Below the pieces are notes generated by a model. The model was not told the DNA's origin. It was given only the letters and a program-made list of their open reading frames with translations, and did not search any database. Shown here piece after piece: positions 6,865-25,787 of a stretch of 28,027 bases of DNA. A program made the translations under genes and the position numbers. Numbering within the stretch: the first letter of the stretch is position 1; each line of letters starts with the position of its first letter. The DNA is taken from positions 1 to 28,027 of IMG/VR virus record IMGVR_UViG_3300009127_000025; one strand, given 5' to 3'. The stretch comes from a virus.

Positions 6865-6954
6865 CTCCTTTCTCTCTTTCTCTGTTGTCTCTAGTCACCC
6901 TTTCCGTGTCTGTACTCACATTGTAGACTATGTTGACAAGTCTGTCAAGTACCA
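6865..6954 (-). repeat. Duplicated promoter/leader, copy 2
   Basis: Second copy of the 90-bp block at 4746-4835, 86 of 90 bases identical. The conservation extends past the promoter through the untranslated leader, which suggests that the leader is also under constraint or that the duplication is recent. Confidence 0.9.
6920..6948 (-). promoter_or_regulatory. Sigma70-type promoter with overlapping inverted repeat (copy 2)
   Basis: Same elements as copy 1: TTGACA (6948-6943), 17-base spacer, TACAAT (6925-6920), and the inverted repeat TTGACA-N4-TGTCAA at 6933-6948. It drives the 180-residue gene starting at 6853 and probably the leftward genes behind it. Confidence 0.8.
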
Positions 6955-7013
6955 TTCCCTAGAACGGTTCGTAAAGTTTTACTCTCCCCTCTGTTCTATT
7001 TTACCCTCACCCG

Positions 7014-7031: not shown

Positions 7032-7095
7032 TCTTTTCTACTCCTTTCTACTCCACTTGACAGTCATATCACTTCTGTGCTACCTTTCTTCCCGT

Positions 7096-7232
7096 GGGTC
7101 CTGTGCGCTCTGCAGCCACCAGCGCCAGGACCCTTCTCGCTTTCTTCTCCTCTCCTTTCCCAGGGCCCGGGCGCTCAACATCGGCTTACCGAGGGATTTT
7201 CCTTTCTCCTCGGTACCGTTGTCCCGGGCCCT
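7096..7232. other. Two large hairpins in polypyrimidine-rich control region
   Basis: Hairpin one: GGGTCCTG-T-GCGC (7096-7108) pairs with GCGC-CAGGACCC (7122-7133), a 12-bp stem with one bulge. Hairpin two: AGGGCCCGGG (7162-7171) pairs perfectly with CCCGGGCCCT (7223-7232), and inside it TACCGAGG (7187-7194) pairs with CCTCGGTA (7208-7215). The surrounding plus strand is almost all C and T. No gene is supported here; the short open frames are artefacts of the skewed composition. Candidate roles are replication origin, packaging site or structured RNA. Confidence 0.6.
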
Positions 7233-7286
7233 CCCCTCCTCTTCCTTCCTCCCCAGAGGTAACTAGGGTAACCGGGGCGCCCCCGC

Positions 7287-7311
7287 CCTCAGGGTATTAC
7301 ATACCCTGAGG
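7287..7311. repeat. Perfect 11-bp inverted repeat
   Basis: CCTCAGGGTAT-TAC-ATACCCTGAGG is perfectly symmetric with a 3-base centre and lies two bases before the first GGTGAC motif. The short centre fits a dimer binding site or a cruciform better than a transcription terminator. Confidence 0.7.
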
Positions 7312-7312
7312 T

Positions 7313-7528
7313 GGTGACGGTGACCCTTTGAGCTGCACGGTGACCCCCGGTGACCCCTGCGGTGACCCCTATTTTACACACAAAAAGGGTCACCAAAGCG
7401 TCACCGACATTAGAGTGATTATCATGTACTACCACGTTACCGGTGACCCCTGTCATCAAAATCTCTAGGCTCAAAGTGGTAGACATAACTCCAATAATGG
7501 GTCACCAAGCGTCACCAGAGGGGTCACC
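7313..7528. repeat. Array of eleven GGTGAC/GTCACC motifs (iteron-like)
   Basis: Six GGTGAC motifs start at 7313, 7319, 7339, 7349, 7361 and 7442. Five in the opposite orientation (GTCACC) are near 7389, 7400, 7501, 7511 and 7523. Most are extended to GGTGACCC or GGGTCACC. Two inverted-orientation pairs have nearly the same layout: GGGTCACCAAAGCGTCACC (7387-7405) and GGGTCACCAAGCGTCACC (7499-7516). An A/T-rich stretch (7370-7386) separates the two orientations. Such clusters are typical of initiator- or terminase-binding sites. The array ends about 85 bases before the first late gene. Confidence 0.75.
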
Positions 7529-7614
7529 ACGTCCTCGCAGGCGTGGGAAAACGAGCTTTTTCCGATTGTCCTGCCGCTATTCTACGTTTTGTCAAGTTGT
7601 TTTGGAGTTTTAAA

Positions 7615-8169
7615 GTGTCAATGTCAATGAACCGCTATGGTCGCCGTCCCCGGACGGTGCAATACAACCAGGCCCGGGACGTCCTGATGCAGTCAGCCAG
7701 GGATGCGGCGAATTATCTATGTGGCTGCTTCACAGTTCAACGGCACGGCTACGAGGTAGGCAAGCCGTCGCCGACGCGTATCAAGGCGGCCATGTACTGT
7801 TTGGACCAGGTGCTAGGGAAGCCGGTGATGCGTGTTGAGGGCGTCGACGGGGCGACGGTGACATACAACCAGATAATCGTCCAGGCCCGGGAGAGAGCGA
7901 GAGAGCTGGCGGACGGCGAGTACCCGGCCGTGATGCCTGGAGAGAGTGCACCGGGTATAGCTGAGAGAGTGGCTGGTGAGGAACATGACGGTGAGCCGGC
8001 AGGGGTTCCCCGGGTTCGTGCCGTGAGTCGCCCGGCTACCGGTCCTCTTCTGGACCCTAAGGCGAGAGTAATACATAGAGGTGATGATGATGGCGATGGC
8101 AGGGTTAGCGAAGTGCTGGCGGACGCTCGCTTGCCAGGGCACGAAGACGCGCAAGCGGGTAGACGGTAA
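7615..8169 (+). CDS. Putative DNA-binding protein, small-terminase candidate
   Basis: 184 residues from a GTG at 7615, seven bases after GGAG; ATG codons at 7621 and 7627 are alternatives, and the open frame back to 7543 lacks a site. Residues about 10-100 are helical and basic (RRPRTVQYNQARDVLMQSA, then PTRIKAAMYCLDQVLGKPV). The 'RIKAA...LD.VLGKP' segment is like phage small-terminase or replication-associated proteins that precede the terminase. The C-terminal part is disordered and Pro/Gly/Asp-rich. It is the first gene of the late operon and sits beside the repeat array, as expected for a protein that binds a packaging site; this assignment is inference. Confidence 0.45.
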   Translation: MSMSMNRYGRRPRTVQYNQARDVLMQSARDAANYLCGCFTVQRHGYEVGKPSPTRIKAAMYCLDQVLGKPVMRVEGVDGATVTYNQIIVQARERARELADGEYPAVMPGESAPGIAERVAGEEHDGEPAGVPRVRAVSRPATGPLLDPKARVIHRGDDDGDGRVSEVLADARLPGHEDAQAGRR

Positions 8170-8699: not shown

Positions 8700-8836
8700 G
8701 TATATTTTGTTGCTTTGTTGGTTTTTCTGCTGGGTACGGGGCTTATCCTCACACGCTCAAAAGGGGGGTTAGGAGGGGGCTCATACAACGGGGCATGGTA
8801 GAAGCTGGTTAGAGGTGATGGGATGCCGACGTGCGG

Positions 8837-9048: not shown

Positions 9049-9306
9049 ATGGTTGCAGAGGAAGTGACGGTTGACGAGATAGTAGGCATCATCAAGAAGT
9101 ACAACCTGTGGTGGCAGGTGTCACCGAGGACGGACCCGGCGGGGCGGGACGATGCGGCGGTAAGGGCGTCGGCGATGAACGGATTGCTGGTGAACGTCTG
9201 CCGTGATGTAGCGGCGCTCCAGAGGTCGAGGATGGCCGGGGAACTGGTTGAGTCGGACATTGAGGAGCACCTGGGGATACCGATGGTAAAAGAGGGTAGC
9301 GGATGA
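9049..9306 (+). CDS. Hypothetical protein directly upstream of terminase (85 aa)
   Basis: The ATG at 9049 follows AAGAAAGGAG; the frame is open from 8998, but without a site. The product starts MVAEEVTVDEIVGIIKKYN and is largely helical (VNVCRDVAALQRSRMAGEL), ending with an ATGA overlap into the terminase gene. Its position, small size and tight coupling make it an alternative candidate for the small terminase or a terminase accessory protein. No family motif is recognised. Confidence 0.55.
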   Translation: MVAEEVTVDEIVGIIKKYNLWWQVSPRTDPAGRDDAAVRASAMNGLLVNVCRDVAALQRSRMAGELVESDIEEHLGIPMVKEGSG

Positions 9307-10739
9307 AGCCGATAGAGGTACCGGTCCAGGACTATACTGAAGAAGTGCTGGAGCTTCAGAAGCTGGGTCAGACGAGGCCGGACTTATGGATAGAACAGGT
9401 GTTCCGGTGTCGGTTGTGGGGGAAGCAGGCAGAGGTAGCCCGGAGCGTCATGGAGAATACGAGGACTGCCGTGAGGAGCTGCTCGGGTAGTGGCAAGAGT
9501 TTCATCGCGGCGAGGGTAGCCCTGGCGTTTCTCCACAACTTTGAGCCGAGTACAGTCATATCGACGGCGCCGACATTCAGGCAGGTTGAGCTCATACTGT
9601 GGCGTGAGATTGCTGCGGCGCAGGGTCAGGCGAGCATACGTCTTGGTGGGGATTTGACGAATGTCCGCCTGGACATTACGGAAAACTGGTTTGCTGTGGG
9701 TCTGTCGACGGACCACCCGGAGCGTTTCCAGGGTTTCCATAATGAGAACATTCTGGTGATTGGCGATGAGGCGAGCGGTTTGCCGGAGACCATCTACTCT
9801 GCACTGGAGAACCCGATGGCAACGGGAAACGCCCACGAGTTGCTCATCGGTAATCCGACGCAGCCGGTAGGACCTTTCCGGGACTGCTTCACATCGCCAC
9901 TCTATCAGACGTTCCACATCTCGGCGTTCGATACACCGAACTTCACCGCCCTGGGGATAACGCGGGAAGACATCAGAGACGGGGCCTGGGAGAAGAAGGT
10001 CGGCGATAAGGTCATGCCCTATCCTGGTCTGGTATCTCCGCGGTGGGTGGCCGAGAGACTCATTGAGTGGGGAGAAGGTTCGTACCTGTGGCTGGTGTAC
10101 GTCGAGGGAGAGTTTCCCGGTAGCGGTGTCAACACACTCTTCCACCTGCCTGACGTTGAGGCTGCCGTAGAGAGGACTATCGAGTCGGAAGGCGACAAGA
10201 TAAGTAGCCTCGATGTCAGCCGGTACGGTGACAGTGAGACGGTGTTTGCCGTGCGCCAGGGTGACCATGTCTTCGAGATGGCCGCTTGGAGCCATGCTGA
10301 TACCACCCATACCGCCGGCCGGACGGCCCGGCATATCCGGTTGAATAATCCGACGTACAACTTCGTCGACTCGGTCGGAGTCGGCGGTGGCGTTGCCGAT
10401 ATGCTCAAAGCCGAGGACATTTCGATAACCGACTTCAATGCCGGGGCGGTGGCGGTCGATAAGGAAAGGTACGGCAACCGGCGGGCCGAACTCTTCTGGT
10501 ATCTTTCACGGAAGTTTGTCGAGGGTACTATTGATATACCTGATGATGGCAAGCTCAAGAGCCAGCTCTGCGACATTCGGTACCGCTATGACCAGAGGGG
10601 CAGAATGTGGATTGAGACGAAGGAAGAGGCCAAGGCGCGGGGCAGCCGGTCGCCGGACCGGGCGGACGCACTGATGATGACTTACGCTCCCGCGAAGTCG
10701 CGGGGTAAAAAGGGTAGACCCAATCAGAAAATATACTAA
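9303..10739 (+). CDS. terL: Terminase large subunit
   Basis: 478 residues. The ATPase half has Walker A SCSGSGKS (residues 59-66), a coupling-type STAPTFRQVE segment near 87 and Walker B ILVIGDEASG with D155-E156. The nuclease half has the RNase-H-like strand SSLDVSRYGDSETVFAV near residue 300, a second acidic strand in NFVDSVGVGGG and the C-terminal SPDRADALMMTYA. These are the usual landmarks of phage packaging motors, which pump DNA into the empty head and cut it. Full-length with no visible break. The start overlaps the upstream stop (ATGA), so it is translated in coupling with the 85-residue gene. Confidence 0.93.
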   Translation: MKPIEVPVQDYTEEVLELQKLGQTRPDLWIEQVFRCRLWGKQAEVARSVMENTRTAVRSCSGSGKSFIAARVALAFLHNFEPSTVISTAPTFRQVELILWREIAAAQGQASIRLGGDLTNVRLDITENWFAVGLSTDHPERFQGFHNENILVIGDEASGLPETIYSALENPMATGNAHELLIGNPTQPVGPFRDCFTSPLYQTFHISAFDTPNFTALGITREDIRDGAWEKKVGDKVMPYPGLVSPRWVAERLIEWGEGSYLWLVYVEGEFPGSGVNTLFHLPDVEAAVERTIESEGDKISSLDVSRYGDSETVFAVRQGDHVFEMAAWSHADTTHTAGRTARHIRLNNPTYNFVDSVGVGGGVADMLKAEDISITDFNAGAVAVDKERYGNRRAELFWYLSRKFVEGTIDIPDDGKLKSQLCDIRYRYDQRGRMWIETKEEAKARGSRSPDRADALMMTYAPAKSRGKKGRPNQKIY

Positions 10740-11163: not shown

Positions 11164-12348
11164 GCTATTTCCGCATATCACACAGATACAATCGAGGAGC
11201 TGTTTCGGATAAGCGGCTTCGACCTACTGCCACCGACCGATAACGAGTTTTCTATCGGTTCTGTGGCCTTCAGTCTGAAGGACATACACGTCCAGAACAT
11301 CGTCTACGCCGGGGCTCTGGCGGGGAATTGGGAGCCGTCGGCCGATGACACGTATCTCCTGGGGAGTGCAACAAAGGGGTGGATTGGTCTGCACCTGCCG
11401 GACACGTTCATAGTGGACGATCCCGGGGTGGTGAAGCTCCGAAACAGTGTCAATGATGCCTACGTTGACCTGGAAGCCATGGACATCCAGCTGGCAGGAA
11501 CAACGACTGCCTTGACCTTTTCCAATGCGGCTACAATAGTGGCAGGTTCTGGCCTGACTCTGCCTGCGTTTGCTATGGGTGGACAGATAACTGGCGGTGG
11601 ACAGAGTATTACAGGTTTAGCTTCTCTGTCTTTTGCAACAGGAGCCAACCGTATTATATTTATGGAGGACGTGGCAGAAGATAAGGAATTAACACTCAGA
11701 GGTGGCCCTAATGCAGGAGGTTCGGGAGGACTGATACTAATTCACGGTCACGCCGATGCTACTCAGCCGGGAGCTATCCGGATGGGTACTTCGAATGCAG
11801 CTGGGAATGCCGATGTTATCAGAATAGATTTGTCAGGTGCAGCAGCAACAGCTGAACTCGCTCTAACCAACGTGACTGTTACTGGCATAGTCCTATCAGG
11901 TGACCTAGAGTTCGGTCCCTCATCTCTTGACCTTTTGGGGCCGTCTACTGATGATGGTTTCTTTGAGATAAAGGCAAAGGACTCTGGTGTTGGTATGGTA
12001 GCTGTGGCTAGTGTTCGCGGGGCTTCTGACCCCTTTATTGCGTTAGGTGGTGGACAAGAGTTCAAGTTTACCAACGCCGGCCTAGTTGGCTTCTTCGGAG
12101 CGACCCCGGTTGCCCAGCCCTCAGCCTACACACAGACCTACGCCACGGCTGACAAGACCATCGCGAACCCGACCTGTACTTCGATGGGTGACCTGGGAGC
12201 TACCGATGCTGGATGGGGTGCTTCGAGCGAGGCCAACTTCGACAAGATTACCACGGCCATCGACCAGATAATCGCTGACAACCTGGACTTGAGACAGGCG
12301 TTGACCGCCCTGGTCGATGACCTGCAAAGTCTGGGACTGTTGCAGTAG
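11161..12348 (+). CDS. Head fibre or tail-fibre-like virion protein
   Basis: 395 residues. The N-terminal part has the 'IGS...KDIHVQNIVYAG' and 'LLGSATKGWIGLHL' pattern found in phage fibres, where short beta repeats link trimeric segments. The middle (about 115-300) is Gly/Ala/Ser/Thr-rich beta structure, and its DNA is visibly lower in GC (about 45-47 % in two 60-base samples) than its flanks. The C-terminus reads VGFFGATPVAQPSAY, and a helical end (NFDKITTAIDQIIADNLDL, then LVDDLQSLGLL) forms a coiled-coil tip typical of this fibre type. The gene is placed among head genes rather than tail genes, so a capsid-attached fibre is likely. The central segment probably varies with host receptor. 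Confidence 0.68.
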   Translation: MAISAYHTDTIEELFRISGFDLLPPTDNEFSIGSVAFSLKDIHVQNIVYAGALAGNWEPSADDTYLLGSATKGWIGLHLPDTFIVDDPGVVKLRNSVNDAYVDLEAMDIQLAGTTTALTFSNAATIVAGSGLTLPAFAMGGQITGGGQSITGLASLSFATGANRIIFMEDVAEDKELTLRGGPNAGGSGGLILIHGHADATQPGAIRMGTSNAAGNADVIRIDLSGAAATAELALTNVTVTGIVLSGDLEFGPSSLDLLGPSTDDGFFEIKAKDSGVGMVAVASVRGASDPFIALGGGQEFKFTNAGLVGFFGATPVAQPSAYTQTYATADKTIANPTCTSMGDLGATDAGWGASSEANFDKITTAIDQIIADNLDLRQALTALVDDLQSLGLLQ

Positions 12349-14786: not shown

Positions 14787-14964
14787 AAACCTTACGCATG
14801 AAGAGCTGGATAGCGAAGTAATGGAAGCTCTGGCTGACTACGAGAAGGCTCAGAAGGCAAAGGGCGGGGCCCGGAGTGCCTTGAGTGCCTTCACGGAAAA
14901 GCTCAGCCGTAAGCCCAAGGTAAATCTACCCGTATTGCAAAGAGGACAGCGAGGGCAGCAGTGA
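14779..14964 (+). CDS. Small helical protein between portal and giant protein (61 aa)
   Basis: Starts at a GTG (14779) that overlaps the portal stop by eight bases, after GGAGGTGGAGG. The product has a helix (LTHEELDSEVMEALADYEK) and a basic tail (KLSRKPKVNLPVLQRGQRG). It ends with a GTGA overlap into the 2218-residue gene, so all three are translationally linked. Function is unknown. Confidence 0.6.
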   Translation: MVENLTHEELDSEVMEALADYEKAQKAKGGARSALSAFTEKLSRKPKVNLPVLQRGQRGQQ

Positions 14965-17900
14965 CACTACCAACCCACGTAGTAGAAATTGACCCGGCGA
15001 GAAAAGCGGCAGAGGCTCAGAGGGCGCTATCGAAGAAAAAGAAGCCGGCGGCGGAGCAGGAACCGGAGATTAAGATAGGTCCTGAGGGCGAAGTCGTCCC
15101 TGAAGTCAGCTGGCTTCGGCAGCCCGAGAAGAGGGCCAGGTGGGCAGAGAGATGGAGAGCGGAAAGAAGGCCGACTGCCGAGGAACCGGCGGTTGGTCCG
15201 CCCCTGGTTGCTGTGCCCGAACCCCTTTGGGGCGGTGGCGGCGGCATCAGTGAACCGGGGGAAGGTGCCGAGCAGCCGCCAGTCGTACCAACCGAACCTG
15301 ACTTGCCTACCAGAGCACGTGAGGCCCTGACTGAGGTCTTCCCGGAGAGAGACGTAGAAGAGCTCGTGCTTGACCTGGAGAGTGCCTATGCCCGTATCGC
15401 TGAGATTGCGTCGACTCTCGAAGGCGTAGTGCCGCCGTTTGAGAAGCAGCCCATGGAGATAGAGCGGGCCGGTCTTGAAGCTGACCTTGACAAGTTTTTC
15501 ATGGCGATATTCGAGTACGGTCGGACGTCCGGTACCGAGTCCCTCCTCCGTGCTATGGGAGCTACCAGGGAAGAGGTTGAAGGCTTCTTTGCCGTAGCAA
15601 AGCAGGCCATACCGGAAGAAGGCTCACCCGTTGAAATGGAGACTGTGGACGGTGAGATAGTCCACGCGACCATCTTCCCGGACTTCTCCGTTTCTGTCGA
15701 GGGCCGCATTGTCGGCAGGTTTGACCCGAGCACTGGAGATTGGGAGGAGCAATACGTCCCGACATCTCGGAAGGAAGCGTGGGAGCGTTATCAGGTCCGG
15801 CTTGTCGAGGTCGCCAATGAGTATGAGGACGTGGCCGACTGGACGCGGAAAGGATGGGAGGATAGGCGGAAGCAGAACCCCGAGAGAGTGCAGGCTTGGT
15901 GGGATGCCAAGAATAAGGCTTGGGACGAATACCTGGTAGAGTACGGTCTGACCTTCGGCGCTTTGTCATTCAGGAAGTTACTGGCTCCGGCGGCGGAGTG
16001 GGGAGAGAGGTATCTTGGTCGGCCCTGGGAAGTCCTGCTTATGGAGGTTGCCGCTCGTACGGCGCAGGCCAACAATGCCATCAACAGGGCGTTGGGTATG
16101 GAGGAGTTTGGAGCTAACCTCGACGAGGAAATCCAGGCTGTCCGCCAGATGGACGAGTTGTATGAGACATACGGCTGGCAGGCCATCTTTGCCGATGAGG
16201 TACATGGGGTGTGGGAAGACTTCAAGGAAGTTGCCGAGGAGAAACGTGGTACTGGCGGTTTCCTTACTGCGCTGGAATGGGCCAATCCTGTCTATCTTAT
16301 CCCGATAGGCCGATTTTTCGGGTGGGGTTCAAGGCTCTCCAGCAGGGTGCCGGTGATCGGCAAGGGTATGGAGCGCACCGCAGCCGCCGTGCAGTATCTT
16401 GAGTTGCAGGCCGGTAAAGCCATAGCATACCCGATTGTGAAGACACTCCGAGCTCCCGGGCGGGTACTGGAGAATGTAGGCGAGAAGCTCGGCAAGAAGT
16501 ATGTCCAGCAGTCCGTCAAGAGGAGCAGGTACCTGGAGCTCGCTATCGACTTGCCCGCCAATGAAGAGCTGCTCAATGGGGTCTTGGTCGATAACTGGAT
16601 GAAGAGGGTTATCATCAATGCCTCGAAGGTCAAGCCGGTAAGGGTGGGTGTCGAGAAGGCACTCGGCTGGCGAATACTCGTCGAGCGGCAAGGTACTCTC
16701 ATTGATGACATCGTTGGTCGTGGTGCTGTTGTTCATGCCGAAGTAATGAGACGCGGGCCCAATGTGGCTAGGGTCAAGGTCAACGAACTCCGCAGCCTAG
16801 TGAAGGACCCGGTCAAATACTTCGGCTTCGATGACGCAGCCTTCTCTACCAGCATGGCCAAGCGTTTAAGGAAAGGCGAGACGGTGACTCCAGAGGTCGG
16901 CACACTGGAGCACGTCTTCACCAGACCGGAAGCCTACAACTGGAAAGGCATGGACTTGGGGCTGGAGTATGTGACTCGTGTCCACGAGGTCAATACCCAG
17001 GTGCTCAACTTCCTCAAGAAGCAGGGCGTCCCGCCTGAGGGTGTGCTCGAAGACTGGTGGATACACCGGGTGGTAACAGGCAGGGTGGATGCCGAGGGGG
17101 AGCTGCTCGCTCTCCGTGGACGGCCCGGTCGTGGTGGCTTTGCCATCGGCAAGCGAGCGTCCTATGACTTCAAGAGAAAGGCTCCCACGATGGCTGAGGG
17201 CATGGCGTGGGGGGTCAAGTACAGCCCGAACATTGAGGACTCCGTCGGTACATACATTCAGGAAGCGTATAAGAAGGTAGCCGACCATCGGTTTATTGAC
17301 TATGTGGCGACGTTCCCTGAGATTAGTGCCGTCACGCCTGCGGAGCGTTTCGTCAGCCAGTTCCCCGAGTTGGCGGCAGAAGTCGTGCAGACAGCCAAGC
17401 TCAAGGCCGATGCGGAGATATTCCGGGGCCATATTCAGAAAGCGATTGAGGGCTGGCGTCCAAACAAGCAGACACTCAATGCCATTGATAGGCGCTTCCC
17501 ACAATGGAGTGCTGAGTTCCGCCGTCTGATAGCCAAGCCTGCCCAGGTCGAGGAGGAGTTGCGAAAGCTACTACTCCAAAACAGGAGGATAATCGACGAC
17601 CTTCAGAAGCGCCTTGTCGTTGCCGAGAAGGTTGACGTCCGGGCCACTGCCGAACGTGCGCGCCAGGAAGGTTACCGCATGGCTCGCCAAGAAGTGCCTC
17701 CAGACTTCAAGCTGCGTGAGGCTTTCGAGGTCATGGACCATAGCGATAAGCTGGCCTTTCGAGAGGCTATGGAAGGGCAGATAGTCGACCTTGACCAGTT
17801 GTTTGCTGAACAGGCTGCGGAACTAGAGGTGCTGTCGTCTTTCCTGAAGGACGATGTACTCTGGCACCATCAGATGATGCTCGGGCGGCGTAAGGTAGGG

Positions 17901-20900
17901 TGGGCATATTTCTTCGGTAAGAAAGAGGGTCTGCTCCGTGAGACAATCACGGTAAAGGAAGCGCAGGCGCTCCTCGGACGGGATACGCCCGTGGGCTGGG
18001 CTCTCGATGCAAAGGGTCGTGTCAAGACTGATGTTCTACTGCCCGATGTGGTCGAGCGCCTGGAAGATACACTCGGTATAAAGATAGGCACGGCTGACGA
18101 CTTCGTTGAGCGGCTGGTCAAGGCTAATGAGATGGAGAACACCGTCGCTGACCTTGATTTGCTCATGGGCATAAGCAAGGAACGGATGCAAGCCGTCGAG
18201 CGCATGATACACATACTCGACGATGTGACCGTGAAACCTGGCCAACTTGCTGAGTTCAGACCGATAGAGCCCGAACCGACTGTGCCAAAGGCCGAACCTG
18301 GTATGCCGGAGGCCGGACTCCAGAGGGACATCTTCGGCTACGAGCATCCGGTCTACCCAAAGGGTAAGGGTGAGGTCACACAAATCAGCATGGATGACGC
18401 TGTTAAGCTGGCCAAGGCGTATGATGACGCCGGGCTTCCTCCTCCTCGGGACGTGGTTATCAAGCCTAAGATTGAGGGTGTGCCGGAGTTGTCAGCAGCG
18501 ACGAGCTTCGAGAGAATTACATTGAAGGTCCCGTCTGAGCTCACTGAGGCGCAGAGGAAAGCTGCGCTCAAGAAGCTCAAGGTAGATGTCGGTGACCTGC
18601 TCAATACAAGGAAAGCCAGGCTTGCTCTGGTAAAGGCCAGGAAAGCAAAGGAGATGGCCATGTCCAGGCAGCCGCAGATTGGCGAGGGCTACCTGATGCA
18701 GCCGTTCGCCGGCGGTAAGATATACGAGCGGACATTCATCGACTCTTTCAACAGGTTCTTCGGACATGAGGGCGGGCTGCCGGGACTGACGGTTGTCGCG
18801 GATACTGCGGGCATACTGCGAATTACTAAGGCGGCGCTGGACTTCTCTATCATGTCCATTCAGGGATTGCCGGCGTGGGGTATTGCTCACGCCTATATGG
18901 TTACTAACCCTGCAATCGGCTCGAAGCTGATGGCTTCATGGTACAAAGCCTTCGCTATGTCTATTGAGGCTGCATTTGCTCCGGAGACGATGGCCAAGTA
19001 TATGACGAAGCACCAGAAGACGGTCATGCAGCGTGTCAATATGGGTGGCAGTGTGGCCAGCGTGGACTTCTTCGCAACTCTCGAAGCCAGGGCCGGGCTT
19101 GGTGGGTGGGCAGAAAAAGCAATGGGCAAGATACCACTGAGGCCATACCATCGTGCCGAGGCTGCCTTCTTTGCAGGCGGTGAAGTCGTACGTGACGAGT
19201 TCTGGAAGATACTCTCTCCGAAGGCCATCGCTCAAGGAAAAGAGTATGAGTTGGCCCGTTTCCTCGACCGCATTACTGGTATCTTCGACAGCAAGGCGGC
19301 GGGTGTACCTTTATCTGTCCGCCAACTTGAGCAGTCTTTCGTATGGTTCGCTCCCAACTATACAAGGGCTTGCCTCACTGTTGTCGGGGACATCTTCAGG
19401 GGTGGCTATACAGGCTCAGAGACTCGGAAAGCTCTCGGTGGCCTGATTGCTGCCGGCGCCTCCTACTACACCGGTGTCCAGTATGCCCTTGCCACTGCCG
19501 AAGGCCAGTCACACGAGGACGCCATGGAGACTGTCCTCGAAGGTTTCGGTGTCGTGAAAGACCCGATTACAGGAGAAACCAAGTGGGCCCCCACAGGTCG
19601 GTTTATGACTATTCAGGTGGGCAACTACCGTATGGGCGTGGGCGGCTTCTGGTACGGCCTGGTGAGGTTGGCAGGGAACATTATGGCCACGGCTACGGAG
19701 GCTGGCGACCGTGAGCGTGTAGACTTCGTCAAGATTATCAAGGATGGTGAGGCCAACCGCGACAATCCTTTCGTCTACTGGTGGTACACAAGGTCATCGC
19801 CGATAGTAGGCACAGGCATAGAACTGGCGACCGGCAAGGACTTTCTGGGCTATCCTTTGGAGAGCCCGATGGATTACGCCCGGTACGTGGCGACACGGTT
19901 CGAGCCTATCTGGATGGAGCAAGGCATAAACTGGATGATACCGGGCATGGCCCGTGACCATGAGGTGCCAGAGGATAAGGCGAAGTATCTTGTGCCTCTG
20001 GGCGAGCTCTTCGGTCTGAGGACCTTCCCTGACAGTGCGTGGACTGACTTCTATGACAAGGCCAGCGAACTCATCAAGCACATAGAGAGGAGTGCGCTTG
20101 ACCCGAAGCAGGTCGAGGCATGGCAGAGAGGCAATCTGGAGTGGCGCTACCTGACGAAATCCCAGCAGATACAATTATTGTCTCGCTACCCTGAGCTGCA
20201 GGAACTCTACGAGACTGCACAGACAGACAGCTTCGTTAGGGACTCGGAGGAGTGGAAGGCGTGGGGTATGCGGACTGACGAAGAGCAGACTGTCTACTAC
20301 GGACGGGGTGCCAGCATAGTCGAGCGTCTGAAGGCGGGCGACCTCAACACCAGGGCTCTCCGGGAGAAGTGGGGAGACGCTGGTCAGAATTACGGCGTGG
20401 CGCTTGACTCCATAGCTCGGGACCCTCATTACCAGAACATTTACGACTACTTCGAGGAGAAAGAAGCCAACGGTGATAAGTACGGCTTCATGGATGACCT
20501 GGCTCTCTCGGAGTATGAGTTGCTGATGTTCTCGGACTTCACGGATAGCCATGGCGAACCCGATTGGGATGAGAGAGACCGGCGCATAGATGATTTCATC
20601 GAGAAGTGGGGCGAGGACACATACCTCCGTATCCGACAGATGTACGCGGACAAGAAGGCGATGGCGGGGCTTGACCCGATGCTCCTCCGTCTCTCTGACG
20701 ATAAGGACAAGCTCGGCCGGACATACTGGAGGCTACCACGAGCTCCGTACATTGAGCTCGATGAGAGCGAAGTGCCGGCTGAGTCGGTCGCACTCTGGAA
20801 GCAGGCTCAAGGGCTGGAAGATAACGAACTTGAAGCCTTCCTGGGCGCCCACCCGGAATTAAATAAGGACTGGCGGGCCGAGTACCGCAAGGCCAATCCT

Positions 20901-21617
20901 GAGCATGATGCCATGTTGTCTCTGTGGGGATACGGTGGCAAGCTTCACAGTAGAGAAGCATATGACCTGGTCCTCAAATGGGCTGGTGAGTTGGGTATCC
21001 CCCTCGCTCAGATAGGTCTTGGTCTACCTCCGGAGAGCCTCATTGACGACTACTTCGGTCTGAATGCCGTCGTGTCTGAACACAGTGGAAATAGCGCCGA
21101 GGCCAAGTTATTCAAGCTCCAGCATCCCCGGTACCTGGAGTGGGGCTTGGAGCAAGGTATATGGAGTGATGACCTGTCAGATGAGAGCGTTGAGGCGCTG
21201 AAACTCAAGGTGGAGATGGGTACATTGCCAGAGGGCTCAGTCGAACGAGCTCAGATGTCAAAGAGGATTGAGGCATACGAGAACGATATGCCAGAGGCTA
21301 TGATAGAGACCTATGTCGACTGGTACATGGTCGACCGGTCCGGGTATGAAGATGACTGGTATCTGCTCTCGAATGGAGCATTTTACAAAGAGATGGTCAG
21401 GAGCGGTATATGGCAGGACCGGGACTTCTCAAAGGTGCCCACTCGTGAGGTCTTCGCTCTCTATGAGGAGTACCAGACTCTCGGTAAGGGTGCTCCGCGG
21501 ACTGCCTTCAGGATACTTCACCCTGCGCTCGATAATTGGTTCCATGTGACCAAGGGGTACAAGCTCTTAACTGAGCTTATTGATAAGGCAGAATATCTCG
21601 CTGCCGAACAGAAATGA
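14961..21617 (+). CDS. Giant polyvalent/internal virion protein (2218 aa)
   Basis: One uninterrupted frame of 6.7 kb starting at GTG 14961 (GTGA overlap), nearly a quarter of the window. Residues 1-120 are disordered and charged. Residues about 695-710 hold EDWWIHRVVTGRV, followed by a GxxxxG basic stretch and GMAWGVKYSPNIEDSVGTY (about 745-765), a pattern I associate with large phage 'polyvalent' proteins. Hydrophobic helices occur near 1277-1320, 1490-1515 and 1555-1580, with FAPNYTRA near 1463. The last 600 residues contain recurring Trp/Pro helical units such as AHPELNKDWRAEYRKANPE. No lysozyme, protease or polymerase motif was seen. The location between portal and scaffold suits an internal protein packaged in the head and ejected with the DNA, forming a conduit across the envelope. 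Confidence 0.7.
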   Translation: MTLPTHVVEIDPARKAAEAQRALSKKKKPAAEQEPEIKIGPEGEVVPEVSWLRQPEKRARWAERWRAERRPTAEEPAVGPPLVAVPEPLWGGGGGISEPGEGAEQPPVVPTEPDLPTRAREALTEVFPERDVEELVLDLESAYARIAEIASTLEGVVPPFEKQPMEIERAGLEADLDKFFMAIFEYGRTSGTESLLRAMGATREEVEGFFAVAKQAIPEEGSPVEMETVDGEIVHATIFPDFSVSVEGRIVGRFDPSTGDWEEQYVPTSRKEAWERYQVRLVEVANEYEDVADWTRKGWEDRRKQNPERVQAWWDAKNKAWDEYLVEYGLTFGALSFRKLLAPAAEWGERYLGRPWEVLLMEVAARTAQANNAINRALGMEEFGANLDEEIQAVRQMDELYETYGWQAIFADEVHGVWEDFKEVAEEKRGTGGFLTALEWANPVYLIPIGRFFGWGSRLSSRVPVIGKGMERTAAAVQYLELQAGKAIAYPIVKTLRAPGRVLENVGEKLGKKYVQQSVKRSRYLELAIDLPANEELLNGVLVDNWMKRVIINASKVKPVRVGVEKALGWRILVERQGTLIDDIVGRGAVVHAEVMRRGPNVARVKVNELRSLVKDPVKYFGFDDAAFSTSMAKRLRKGETVTPEVGTLEHVFTRPEAYNWKGMDLGLEYVTRVHEVNTQVLNFLKKQGVPPEGVLEDWWIHRVVTGRVDAEGELLALRGRPGRGGFAIGKRASYDFKRKAPTMAEGMAWGVKYSPNIEDSVGTYIQEAYKKVADHRFIDYVATFPEISAVTPAERFVSQFPELAAEVVQTAKLKADAEIFRGHIQKAIEGWRPNKQTLNAIDRRFPQWSAEFRRLIAKPAQVEEELRKLLLQNRRIIDDLQKRLVVAEKVDVRATAERARQEGYRMARQEVPPDFKLREAFEVMDHSDKLAFREAMEGQIVDLDQLFAEQAAELEVLSSFLKDDVLWHHQMMLGRRKVGWAYFFGKKEGLLRETITVKEAQALLGRDTPVGWALDAKGRVKTDVLLPDVVERLEDTLGIKIGTADDFVERLVKANEMENTVADLDLLMGISKERMQAVERMIHILDDVTVKPGQLAEFRPIEPEPTVPKAEPGMPEAGLQRDIFGYEHPVYPKGKGEVTQISMDDAVKLAKAYDDAGLPPPRDVVIKPKIEGVPELSAATSFERITLKVPSELTEAQRKAALKKLKVDVGDLLNTRKARLALVKARKAKEMAMSRQPQIGEGYLMQPFAGGKIYERTFIDSFNRFFGHEGGLPGLTVVADTAGILRITKAALDFSIMSIQGLPAWGIAHAYMVTNPAIGSKLMASWYKAFAMSIEAAFAPETMAKYMTKHQKTVMQRVNMGGSVASVDFFATLEARAGLGGWAEKAMGKIPLRPYHRAEAAFFAGGEVVRDEFWKILSPKAIAQGKEYELARFLDRITGIFDSKAAGVPLSVRQLEQSFVWFAPNYTRACLTVVGDIFRGGYTGSETRKALGGLIAAGASYYTGVQYALATAEGQSHEDAMETVLEGFGVVKDPITGETKWAPTGRFMTIQVGNYRMGVGGFWYGLVRLAGNIMATATEAGDRERVDFVKIIKDGEANRDNPFVYWWYTRSSPIVGTGIELATGKDFLGYPLESPMDYARYVATRFEPIWMEQGINWMIPGMARDHEVPEDKAKYLVPLGELFGLRTFPDSAWTDFYDKASELIKHIERSALDPKQVEAWQRGNLEWRYLTKSQQIQLLSRYPELQELYETAQTDSFVRDSEEWKAWGMRTDEEQTVYYGRGASIVERLKAGDLNTRALREKWGDAGQNYGVALDSIARDPHYQNIYDYFEEKEANGDKYGFMDDLALSEYELLMFSDFTDSHGEPDWDERDRRIDDFIEKWGEDTYLRIRQMYADKKAMAGLDPMLLRLSDDKDKLGRTYWRLPRAPYIELDESEVPAESVALWKQAQGLEDNELEAFLGAHPELNKDWRAEYRKANPEHDAMLSLWGYGGKLHSREAYDLVLKWAGELGIPLAQIGLGLPPESLIDDYFGLNAVVSEHSGNSAEAKLFKLQHPRYLEWGLEQGIWSDDLSDESVEALKLKVEMGTLPEGSVERAQMSKRIEAYENDMPEAMIETYVDWYMVDRSGYEDDWYLLSNGAFYKEMVRSGIWQDRDFSKVPTREVFALYEEYQTLGKGAPRTAFRILHPALDNWFHVTKGYKLLTELIDKAEYLAAEQK

Positions 21618-25394: not shown

Positions 25395-25787
25395 ATGCAC
25401 CTGATAATGGACGGGCCGTGCAAGAACACGGCACTAATGCGTGACCCCGGGCTCCTCTCCAGGTGGCTCCATGACACCGCTATAAAGGCGGACATGACTC
25501 CCCACGGCGAGCCTTTCATTGATGGCTTCGCATGGCCTGGCTCCGATGACAAGGACGCTCTCTCTGGCGTTCAGTTCCTTAAGGAGTCAGCCATAATGAT
25601 ACACACCTGGCCTGAAGTACCATACGCTTTCGTTGATGTATTCAGTTGCCGGGACTTCGATGCTCTGACTCTGGAGCGGCATATCAGGGAGACGTTGGGG
25701 ATGGGTCCGGCCAAGCCGCTCATCCTCGAACGGGGAGTAAATCCTACGACGGGCGTCATAGTGTCAACTCGTCTAAGGAGGCCGTAA
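25395..25787 (+). CDS. speD: S-adenosylmethionine decarboxylase-like protein (SpeD/SpeH type)
   Basis: 130 residues, the usual size of the short bacterial proenzyme. The block LKESAIMIHTWPEVPYAFV followed by DVFSC carries the family's functional residues. E64-S65 is the self-cleavage pair that makes the pyruvoyl group, H70 is the processing histidine and C85 the proton-donor cysteine. The S-to-H spacing (5) and H-to-C spacing (15) equal those of the Thermotoga maritima enzyme. One change is A66, where most homologues have His (ESH). Such enzymes turn SAM into decarboxylated SAM for spermidine synthesis; related proteins have switched to ornithine or arginine. No spermidine synthase is nearby. 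Within a phage structural cassette it may supply polyamine for DNA condensation or lower SAM; both are inference. It ends in a TAATG overlap with the adaptor gene. Confidence 0.8.
   Translation: MHLIMDGPCKNTALMRDPGLLSRWLHDTAIKADMTPHGEPFIDGFAWPGSDDKDALSGVQFLKESAIMIHTWPEVPYAFVDVFSCRDFDALTLERHIRETLGMGPAKPLILERGVNPTTGVIVSTRLRRP

Follow-up and report, generated by a model that had tools for sequence, protein, structure and literature searches.

The origin of satellite phage P4 carries type I iterons, GGTGAACAGT, which are short, have a GGTGA core and are used both near and away from the initiator gene. For phages of uncultured hosts, Chloroflexota among them, few replication origins have been described. 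In PICI origins, an AT-rich region is flanked by two sets of iterons (PMC6092414), and the origin of lambda combines iterons with an AT-rich tract (PMC7466680). At oriV of RSF1010, the iterons are read by RepC for the RepA helicase (PMC4234260, PMC8965321). Repeats also occur near terminase genes: the pac site of SPP1 covers repeats together with the start of the small terminase gene, and recognition of pac by SF6 TerS depends little on sequence (PMC4737164). Here, we describe a dense array of GGTGAC sites in both orientations upstream of the late genes of an uncultured phage. We consider it probable that this array is an iteron-type replication origin, to which the AAA_25 helicase of the phage itself would probably bind.

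The phage and its circular map

The window, by which we mean the whole stretch of 28,027 nucleotides that was analysed (positions 1 to 28,027 of IMG/VR record IMGVR_UViG_3300009127_000025), is essentially identical to a second IMG/VR contig, 3300009311_000016, with one mismatch in 11,943 bp. The second contig starts at window position 8794, passes the window end and returns to window position 2840, so that together the two contigs close to a circular map of 36,826 bp. The part of the map outside the window encodes a tyrosine integrase adjoining a tRNA-like attP piece, a CI-like repressor, a RecT-like protein and an AAA_25 helicase, as well as a RuvC-like protein recognised by eye. The virus is a temperate tailed phage. 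Its nearest terminase relatives belong to uncultured phages, and many bacterial homologues are found in Chloroflexota, which may include the host. The piece beside the integrase (L007 9993-10045) resembles a tRNA gene lacking its 5' part and is probably the attachment site; when a host tRNA match was sought in six genomes, the only hit had 3 mismatches. Two further ORFs of the window stand out, one resembling the S-adenosylmethionine decarboxylase SpeD by eye (25395-25787) and a single ORF of 2218 codons (14961-21617), very large for a 36.8-kb phage.

Structure of the GGTGAC array

The array comprises 11 copies of GGTGAC, six on the plus strand and five on the minus strand (reading GTCACC), within 216 bp of non-coding DNA (7313-7528; Table 1). 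GGTGAC is the densest hexamer in the window, where the top unrelated hexamer reaches 5 copies per 220 bp. The maximum hexamer count was 4-5 per 220 bp in 30 dinucleotide shuffles of the whole window and did not exceed 5 in 500 shuffles of the local 242 bp. Outside the cluster the window holds 19 further copies, about as many as chance would give (18.3 for the whole window), so the excess of GGTGAC is a local cluster and not genome-wide. Nowhere else in the map do six or more identical hexamers form an array. The original prediction, made from the letters alone, had the copy number, the division between orientations and the excess over chance right, and it had also correctly described the perfect inverted repeat ahead of the array and two near-identical paired units (7387-7405, GGGTCACCAAAGCGTCACC; 7499-7516, GGGTCACCAAGCGTCACC). 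Its hexamers are real, but conservation extends beyond them: the unit is about 11 bp long and reads YGGTGACSCYT over the 11 copies; the second base after GGTGAC is C in 10 of the 11 and the fourth is T in 9.

Table 1. Features of the array and its surroundings (window coordinates)
Feature	Position	Strand	Remarks
Probable late promoter, TTGACA...TGTGCTACC	7057-7084	+	upstream of the array
Perfect palindrome, CCTCAGGGTAT-TAC-ATACCCTGAGG	7287-7311	.	11-bp arms, TAC centre; left edge of the array
Left iteron group, five copies	7313-7366	+	GGTGAC at 7313, 7319, 7339, 7349, 7361
AT-richer core	7368-7500	.	GC 0.43 vs 0.563 in the window; holds three iterons
Inner iteron pair	7389-7405	-	GTCACC at 7389 and 7400
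Single iteron inside the AT-rich core	7442-7447	+	GGTGAC
Right iteron group, three copies	7501-7528	-	GTCACC at 7501, 7511, 7523
TerS-like 184-aa protein	7615-8169	+	family upstream of TerL in six phages
Large terminase	9303-10739	+	PHROG phrog_2, E 3.5e-34

Neighbouring copies on the same strand start 6, 20, 10 and 12 bp apart in the left group, 11 bp apart in the inner pair, and 10 and 12 bp apart in the right group. Copies within the tandem groups are thus mostly separated by 10-12 bp, one turn of DNA, and lie on the same DNA face. The palindrome is exact, ends one base ahead of the first iteron, and forms the longest perfect stem with a short loop anywhere in the map. Within the AT-richer core, the GC content of 7406-7500 is among the lowest 1% of 95-bp stretches. 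The locus thus has the repeated and regularly spaced motif, the AT-rich region beside the iterons and the helicase encoded by the same replicon that characterise iteron origins. No plausible gene crosses the array (7313-7528), and its flanks are divergent, the leftward gene starting at 6955 and the rightward late genes at about 7615, in agreement with the gene-free divergent setting that had been predicted. The GC-skew plot proposed as a check has its cumulative minimum at 7-8 kb; this is not decisive, because gene orientation switches at the same place.

The array and the terminase genes

The array ends about 90 bp before the gene of the TerS-like protein, with TerL following, where a packaging start site (pac or cosB) might be expected: the neighbouring small terminase would bind the repeats and direct the large terminase to cut nearby. 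In SPP1, too, pac takes in repeats along with the beginning of the gene for the small terminase (PMC4737164), sites on one DNA face would suit a ring-shaped TerS, and a circular map with no fixed end is compatible with headful packaging. By position, the 184-aa protein is a fair candidate for the small terminase. Its predicted fold is uninformative (AlphaFold pTM 0.40, no informative fold match), and the absence of a visible helix-turn-helix from this modest model speaks against the packaging reading. A direct scan found no relatives of the protein; they were recovered by synteny and a profile. In the five other phages of the family (L252, L253, L254, L257 and L258), no hexamer array of more than 5 copies was found upstream of or near the TerS-like gene. 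Among 11 terminase relatives, some of them recorded as short fragments, one has a single GGTGAC pair and none has more, and AAA_25 is absent from these relatives too. Since both the array and the helicase are missing from phages sharing the terminase, the TerS-like protein is probably not the binder of the array. It had been proposed as such, together with the 85-residue product, for which no family matched convincingly and which is probably also a wrong choice. The low sequence specificity of SF6 TerS (PMC4737164) and the continuity of the window contig through the array also argue against a packaging site. Given that the packaging relatives do without the array, we consider a pac or cosB site unlikely.

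Other elements were seen near terminase genes. In L253 (6174-6248) and L257 (6415-6489), tRNA-Met (CAT) genes lie near the terminase genes. In L271 and L274, 10 or 11 copies of TGCACA occur within about 200 bp, some 0.8-1.0 kb upstream of TerL, so that a terminase gene of the same family has a hexamer array nearby in these contigs too.

Promoters and leader around the array

The probable late promoter element, in the form TTGACA...TSTGCTAYC, recurs ahead of the TerS-like gene in L253 and L254, and inspection by eye showed similar elements in L257 and L258. A promoter-like stretch, TTGACAGACTTGTCAACATAGTCTACAAT, occurs identically at the head of two groups of leftward genes, at 6948-6920 and at a near-identical site at about 4829-4801 (both on the minus strand), and the sequence surrounding the two sites is similar.

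Lying between the probable late promoter and the late genes, with the strong leftward promoter at 6948 nearby, the repeats could be operators through which a transcription factor, from the phage or the host, controls the late promoter or the leftward genes. Dimeric activators often have tandem sites with a spacing of about 11 bp. However, eleven sites downstream of a promoter would be unusual for an operator, and no comparable cluster accompanies the near-identical leftward promoter at about 4829. Because the motif is not clustered at the CI/Cro immunity region, where copies are scattered, or elsewhere in the map, we regard a regulator cluster as improbable, somewhat more so than a packaging site.

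Strong GC-rich hairpins are present at 7096-7134 and 7162-7232 of the window, in the presumed late leader ahead of the array. As RNA, the leader (7084-7233) has a folding z of -7.9, and the leaders found at the equivalent place in L253 and L254 are structured as well. The array region (7287-7530) also folds far below shuffled energy (z -7.0), as it would if the opposed repeats paired in the transcript and acted in antitermination or translation control. Yet inverted copies pair automatically, and an Rfam search gave matches at chance level only. Stems need complementary arms, and not one word five or six times per strand; for this reason a structured leader RNA appears very improbable as the function of the array.

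AAA_25 helicases and adjoining arrays

The helicase of the phage is a 434-aa AAA_25 (RepA-like) protein (L007:14537-15841; Pfam E 1.2e-15). The map places the end of its gene 7.6 kb ahead of the array, and the stop codon is overlapped by the next ORF. Apart from the same virus, IMG/VR gave no close relative of the protein, and the phage collection yielded two distant AAA_25 relatives and no more. A PDB sequence search with the helicase returned no match, and its AlphaFold model was too poor to use (pLDDT 36).

We searched 400 Chloroflexota genomes with the AAA_25 protein and obtained 16 homologous places at E <= 0.001. At 7 of the 16, a two-orientation hexamer array of at least six copies starts at the stop codon of the homologue. 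The seven arrays use six different words, namely ACTTAC, CGGACA (twice), ATTAGC, GACGCA, GGACAA and GGGACA. As a background, 11 of 773 windows of the fetched contigs reach six copies, the AAA_25 arrays included, which gives P ~1e-9 for 7 of 16. The elements with AAA_25-linked arrays are L484, L492, L493 (AAA_25 stop at 11925), L462, L463, L467 and L472, together with the phage contig L361. Several of the Chloroflexota arrays have a hairpin between mirrored repeats. In L361, which is unrelated to the phage described here, GGTGAC itself surrounds a hairpin at the 3' end of the AAA_25 gene, reading GGTGAC-CCTACTCTCTTTAGAGTAG-GTCACC. The palindrome is flanked by iterons on both sides in L361, L463 and L492, and on one side in our phage.

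All 11 aligned proteins carry AAA_25, and most share a C-terminal stretch with winged-helix spacing that ends near a W-G motif. Pfam matches to winged-helix or HTH families were weak and came from few of these proteins, and Pfam detected no winged helix in the phage's own. Judged from the sequence pattern, the phage helicase may nevertheless have a C-terminal winged-helix-like tail.

GGTGAC arrays in other phages

Two IMG/VR scans for GGTGACC in opposed orientations, blind to gene content, and one earlier direct-repeat scan returned phage contigs unrelated to this phage. In many of them the array lies in or just after a replication gene: VapE-like genes in L331, L333, L027 and L412, D5/DUF5906 helicase genes in L334, L376 and L373, the AAA_25 gene in L361, HTH_36 initiators in L124 and L023, and genes of O-like or DUF1376 proteins in L435, L437 and L391. 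Of the 22 two-orientation GGTGAC arrays, nine have a gene for a replication helicase or initiator no more than 500 bp away, against 2.4 expected, and none of 2000 random placements did as well. Random positions were drawn within the same loci, which is the fair control because the query proteins came from these loci. For the last IMG/VR scan alone, with the criterion fixed beforehand, 2 of 6 arrays were near replication genes (about 0.7 expected), which is not significant. Several arrays outside this distance are located in GC-rich coding repeats. In L331, L333 and L334, where the array follows the helicase, the gene order is replication - array - terS - terL, the terminase genes being recognised by eye. 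Opposed GGTGACC triples gave 11 matches in 400 Chloroflexota genomes. A DNA similarity search with the array found no phage match, and its plasmid matches were at chance level.

GGTGAC arrays also occur beside or near phage integrase genes in L384 (659-797) and L439 (1759-2006), possibly as integrase arm sites; the L384 array is the smaller one, and that of L439 is among the arrays outside the 500-bp distance from replication genes. For our phage, the corresponding idea of integrase arm sites was rejected; its integrase and attP-like tRNA piece are elsewhere in the map.

We found no report in the literature of GGTGACC repeats in phages, none that links AAA_25 or RepA-like phage helicases to iteron origins, and no paper on the AAA_25-linked arrays of the Chloroflexota elements and L361.

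A proposed replication origin

An origin, a pac/cos site and a regulator cluster had all been offered as functions of the array. The comparative evidence favours the origin, and the other two are less supported. The array has its palindrome and AT-rich core, and both the AAA_25 family and two-orientation GGTGAC arrays are associated with replication loci. We propose an iteron-type origin because related helicases in other mobile elements adjoin arrays that are built alike. That the array is bound and melted, which protein initiates and that this phage uses the site as its origin are inferences. The initiator would bind about eleven 11-bp iterons, YGGTGACSCYT, on one DNA face. The iterons would act in two groups of opposite orientation, between which the initiator would open the AT-rich core, and the perfect hairpin lies at the left edge. 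The most likely initiator is the 434-aa AAA_25 helicase, which would recognise the iterons through its winged-helix-like tail and would also serve as the replicative helicase at the array. Distance is the chief argument against this reading: with the helicase gene 7.6 kb away and the next ORF overlapping its stop codon, the origin would have moved away from the gene. The suggested co-variation of array and helicase draws on distant homologues and a one-sided absence, and the initiator may be another protein, even one of the host.

A broader generalisation seems to us about evenly balanced between right and wrong. RepA-like AAA_25 proteins with a C-terminal winged helix would be widespread, uncharacterised origin-reading helicases of Chloroflexota mobile elements and phages, most with an iteron word of their own in both orientations around a hairpin. 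In the present phage the origin would have shifted into the leader of the late operon, and GGTGAC would recur at the origins of unrelated initiators (VapE, D5, HTH_36, O-like and AAA_25). If so, a single helicase family would predict where to look for an origin and what kind of motif to expect, and minimal replicons could be obtained for vectors in hosts without genetics. GGTGAC recurs beside initiators that are unrelated to one another, and a host factor, properties of the DNA or exchange of origins may lie behind this.

Comparison with known systems

The P4 initiator, alpha, is a primase with an SF3-type helicase, unlike the AAA_25 protein. The pac sites of SPP1 and SF6 resemble the locus in having repeats near the small terminase gene (PMC4737164), whereas they contain few direct repeats of low specificity and no dense two-orientation array. 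Lambda-type origins likewise combine iterons and an AT-rich tract in a temperate phage; the lambda iterons, however, lie within the O gene and are imperfect inverted repeats of 19 bp, and no O-like gene was found here. As in PICI origins, two opposite iteron groups flank an AT-rich region (7368-7500), here with further copies inside the core. PICI and SaPI origins lie directly 3' of a rep/primase gene, whereas the array has no such neighbour, the helicase gene ending 7.6 kb before it. RSF1010 oriV shares a RepA-type hexameric helicase at an iteron origin, but RSF1010 has a separate iteron-binding RepC, whereas the helicase of this phage may itself carry the DNA-binding tail. A helicase fused to an iteron reader would make initiation simpler than with the separate RepC and RepA.

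The closest resemblance is to the AAA_25-linked arrays of the Chloroflexota elements and L361. These share an AAA_25 protein with a winged-helix-like tail in the same element, a two-orientation hexamer array and, in most cases, a perfect hairpin at or in the array, as with the hairpin 1 bp from the first iteron here; L361 shares even the word GGTGAC. Their arrays lie directly after the helicase stop codon, often with the hairpin between mirrored repeats, whereas ours is distant from that stop codon and has the palindrome at one edge. We therefore place the array beside these arrays as one that would work like them, without counting it as a member of the group, and regard it as a likely variant of the known iteron-type origins.
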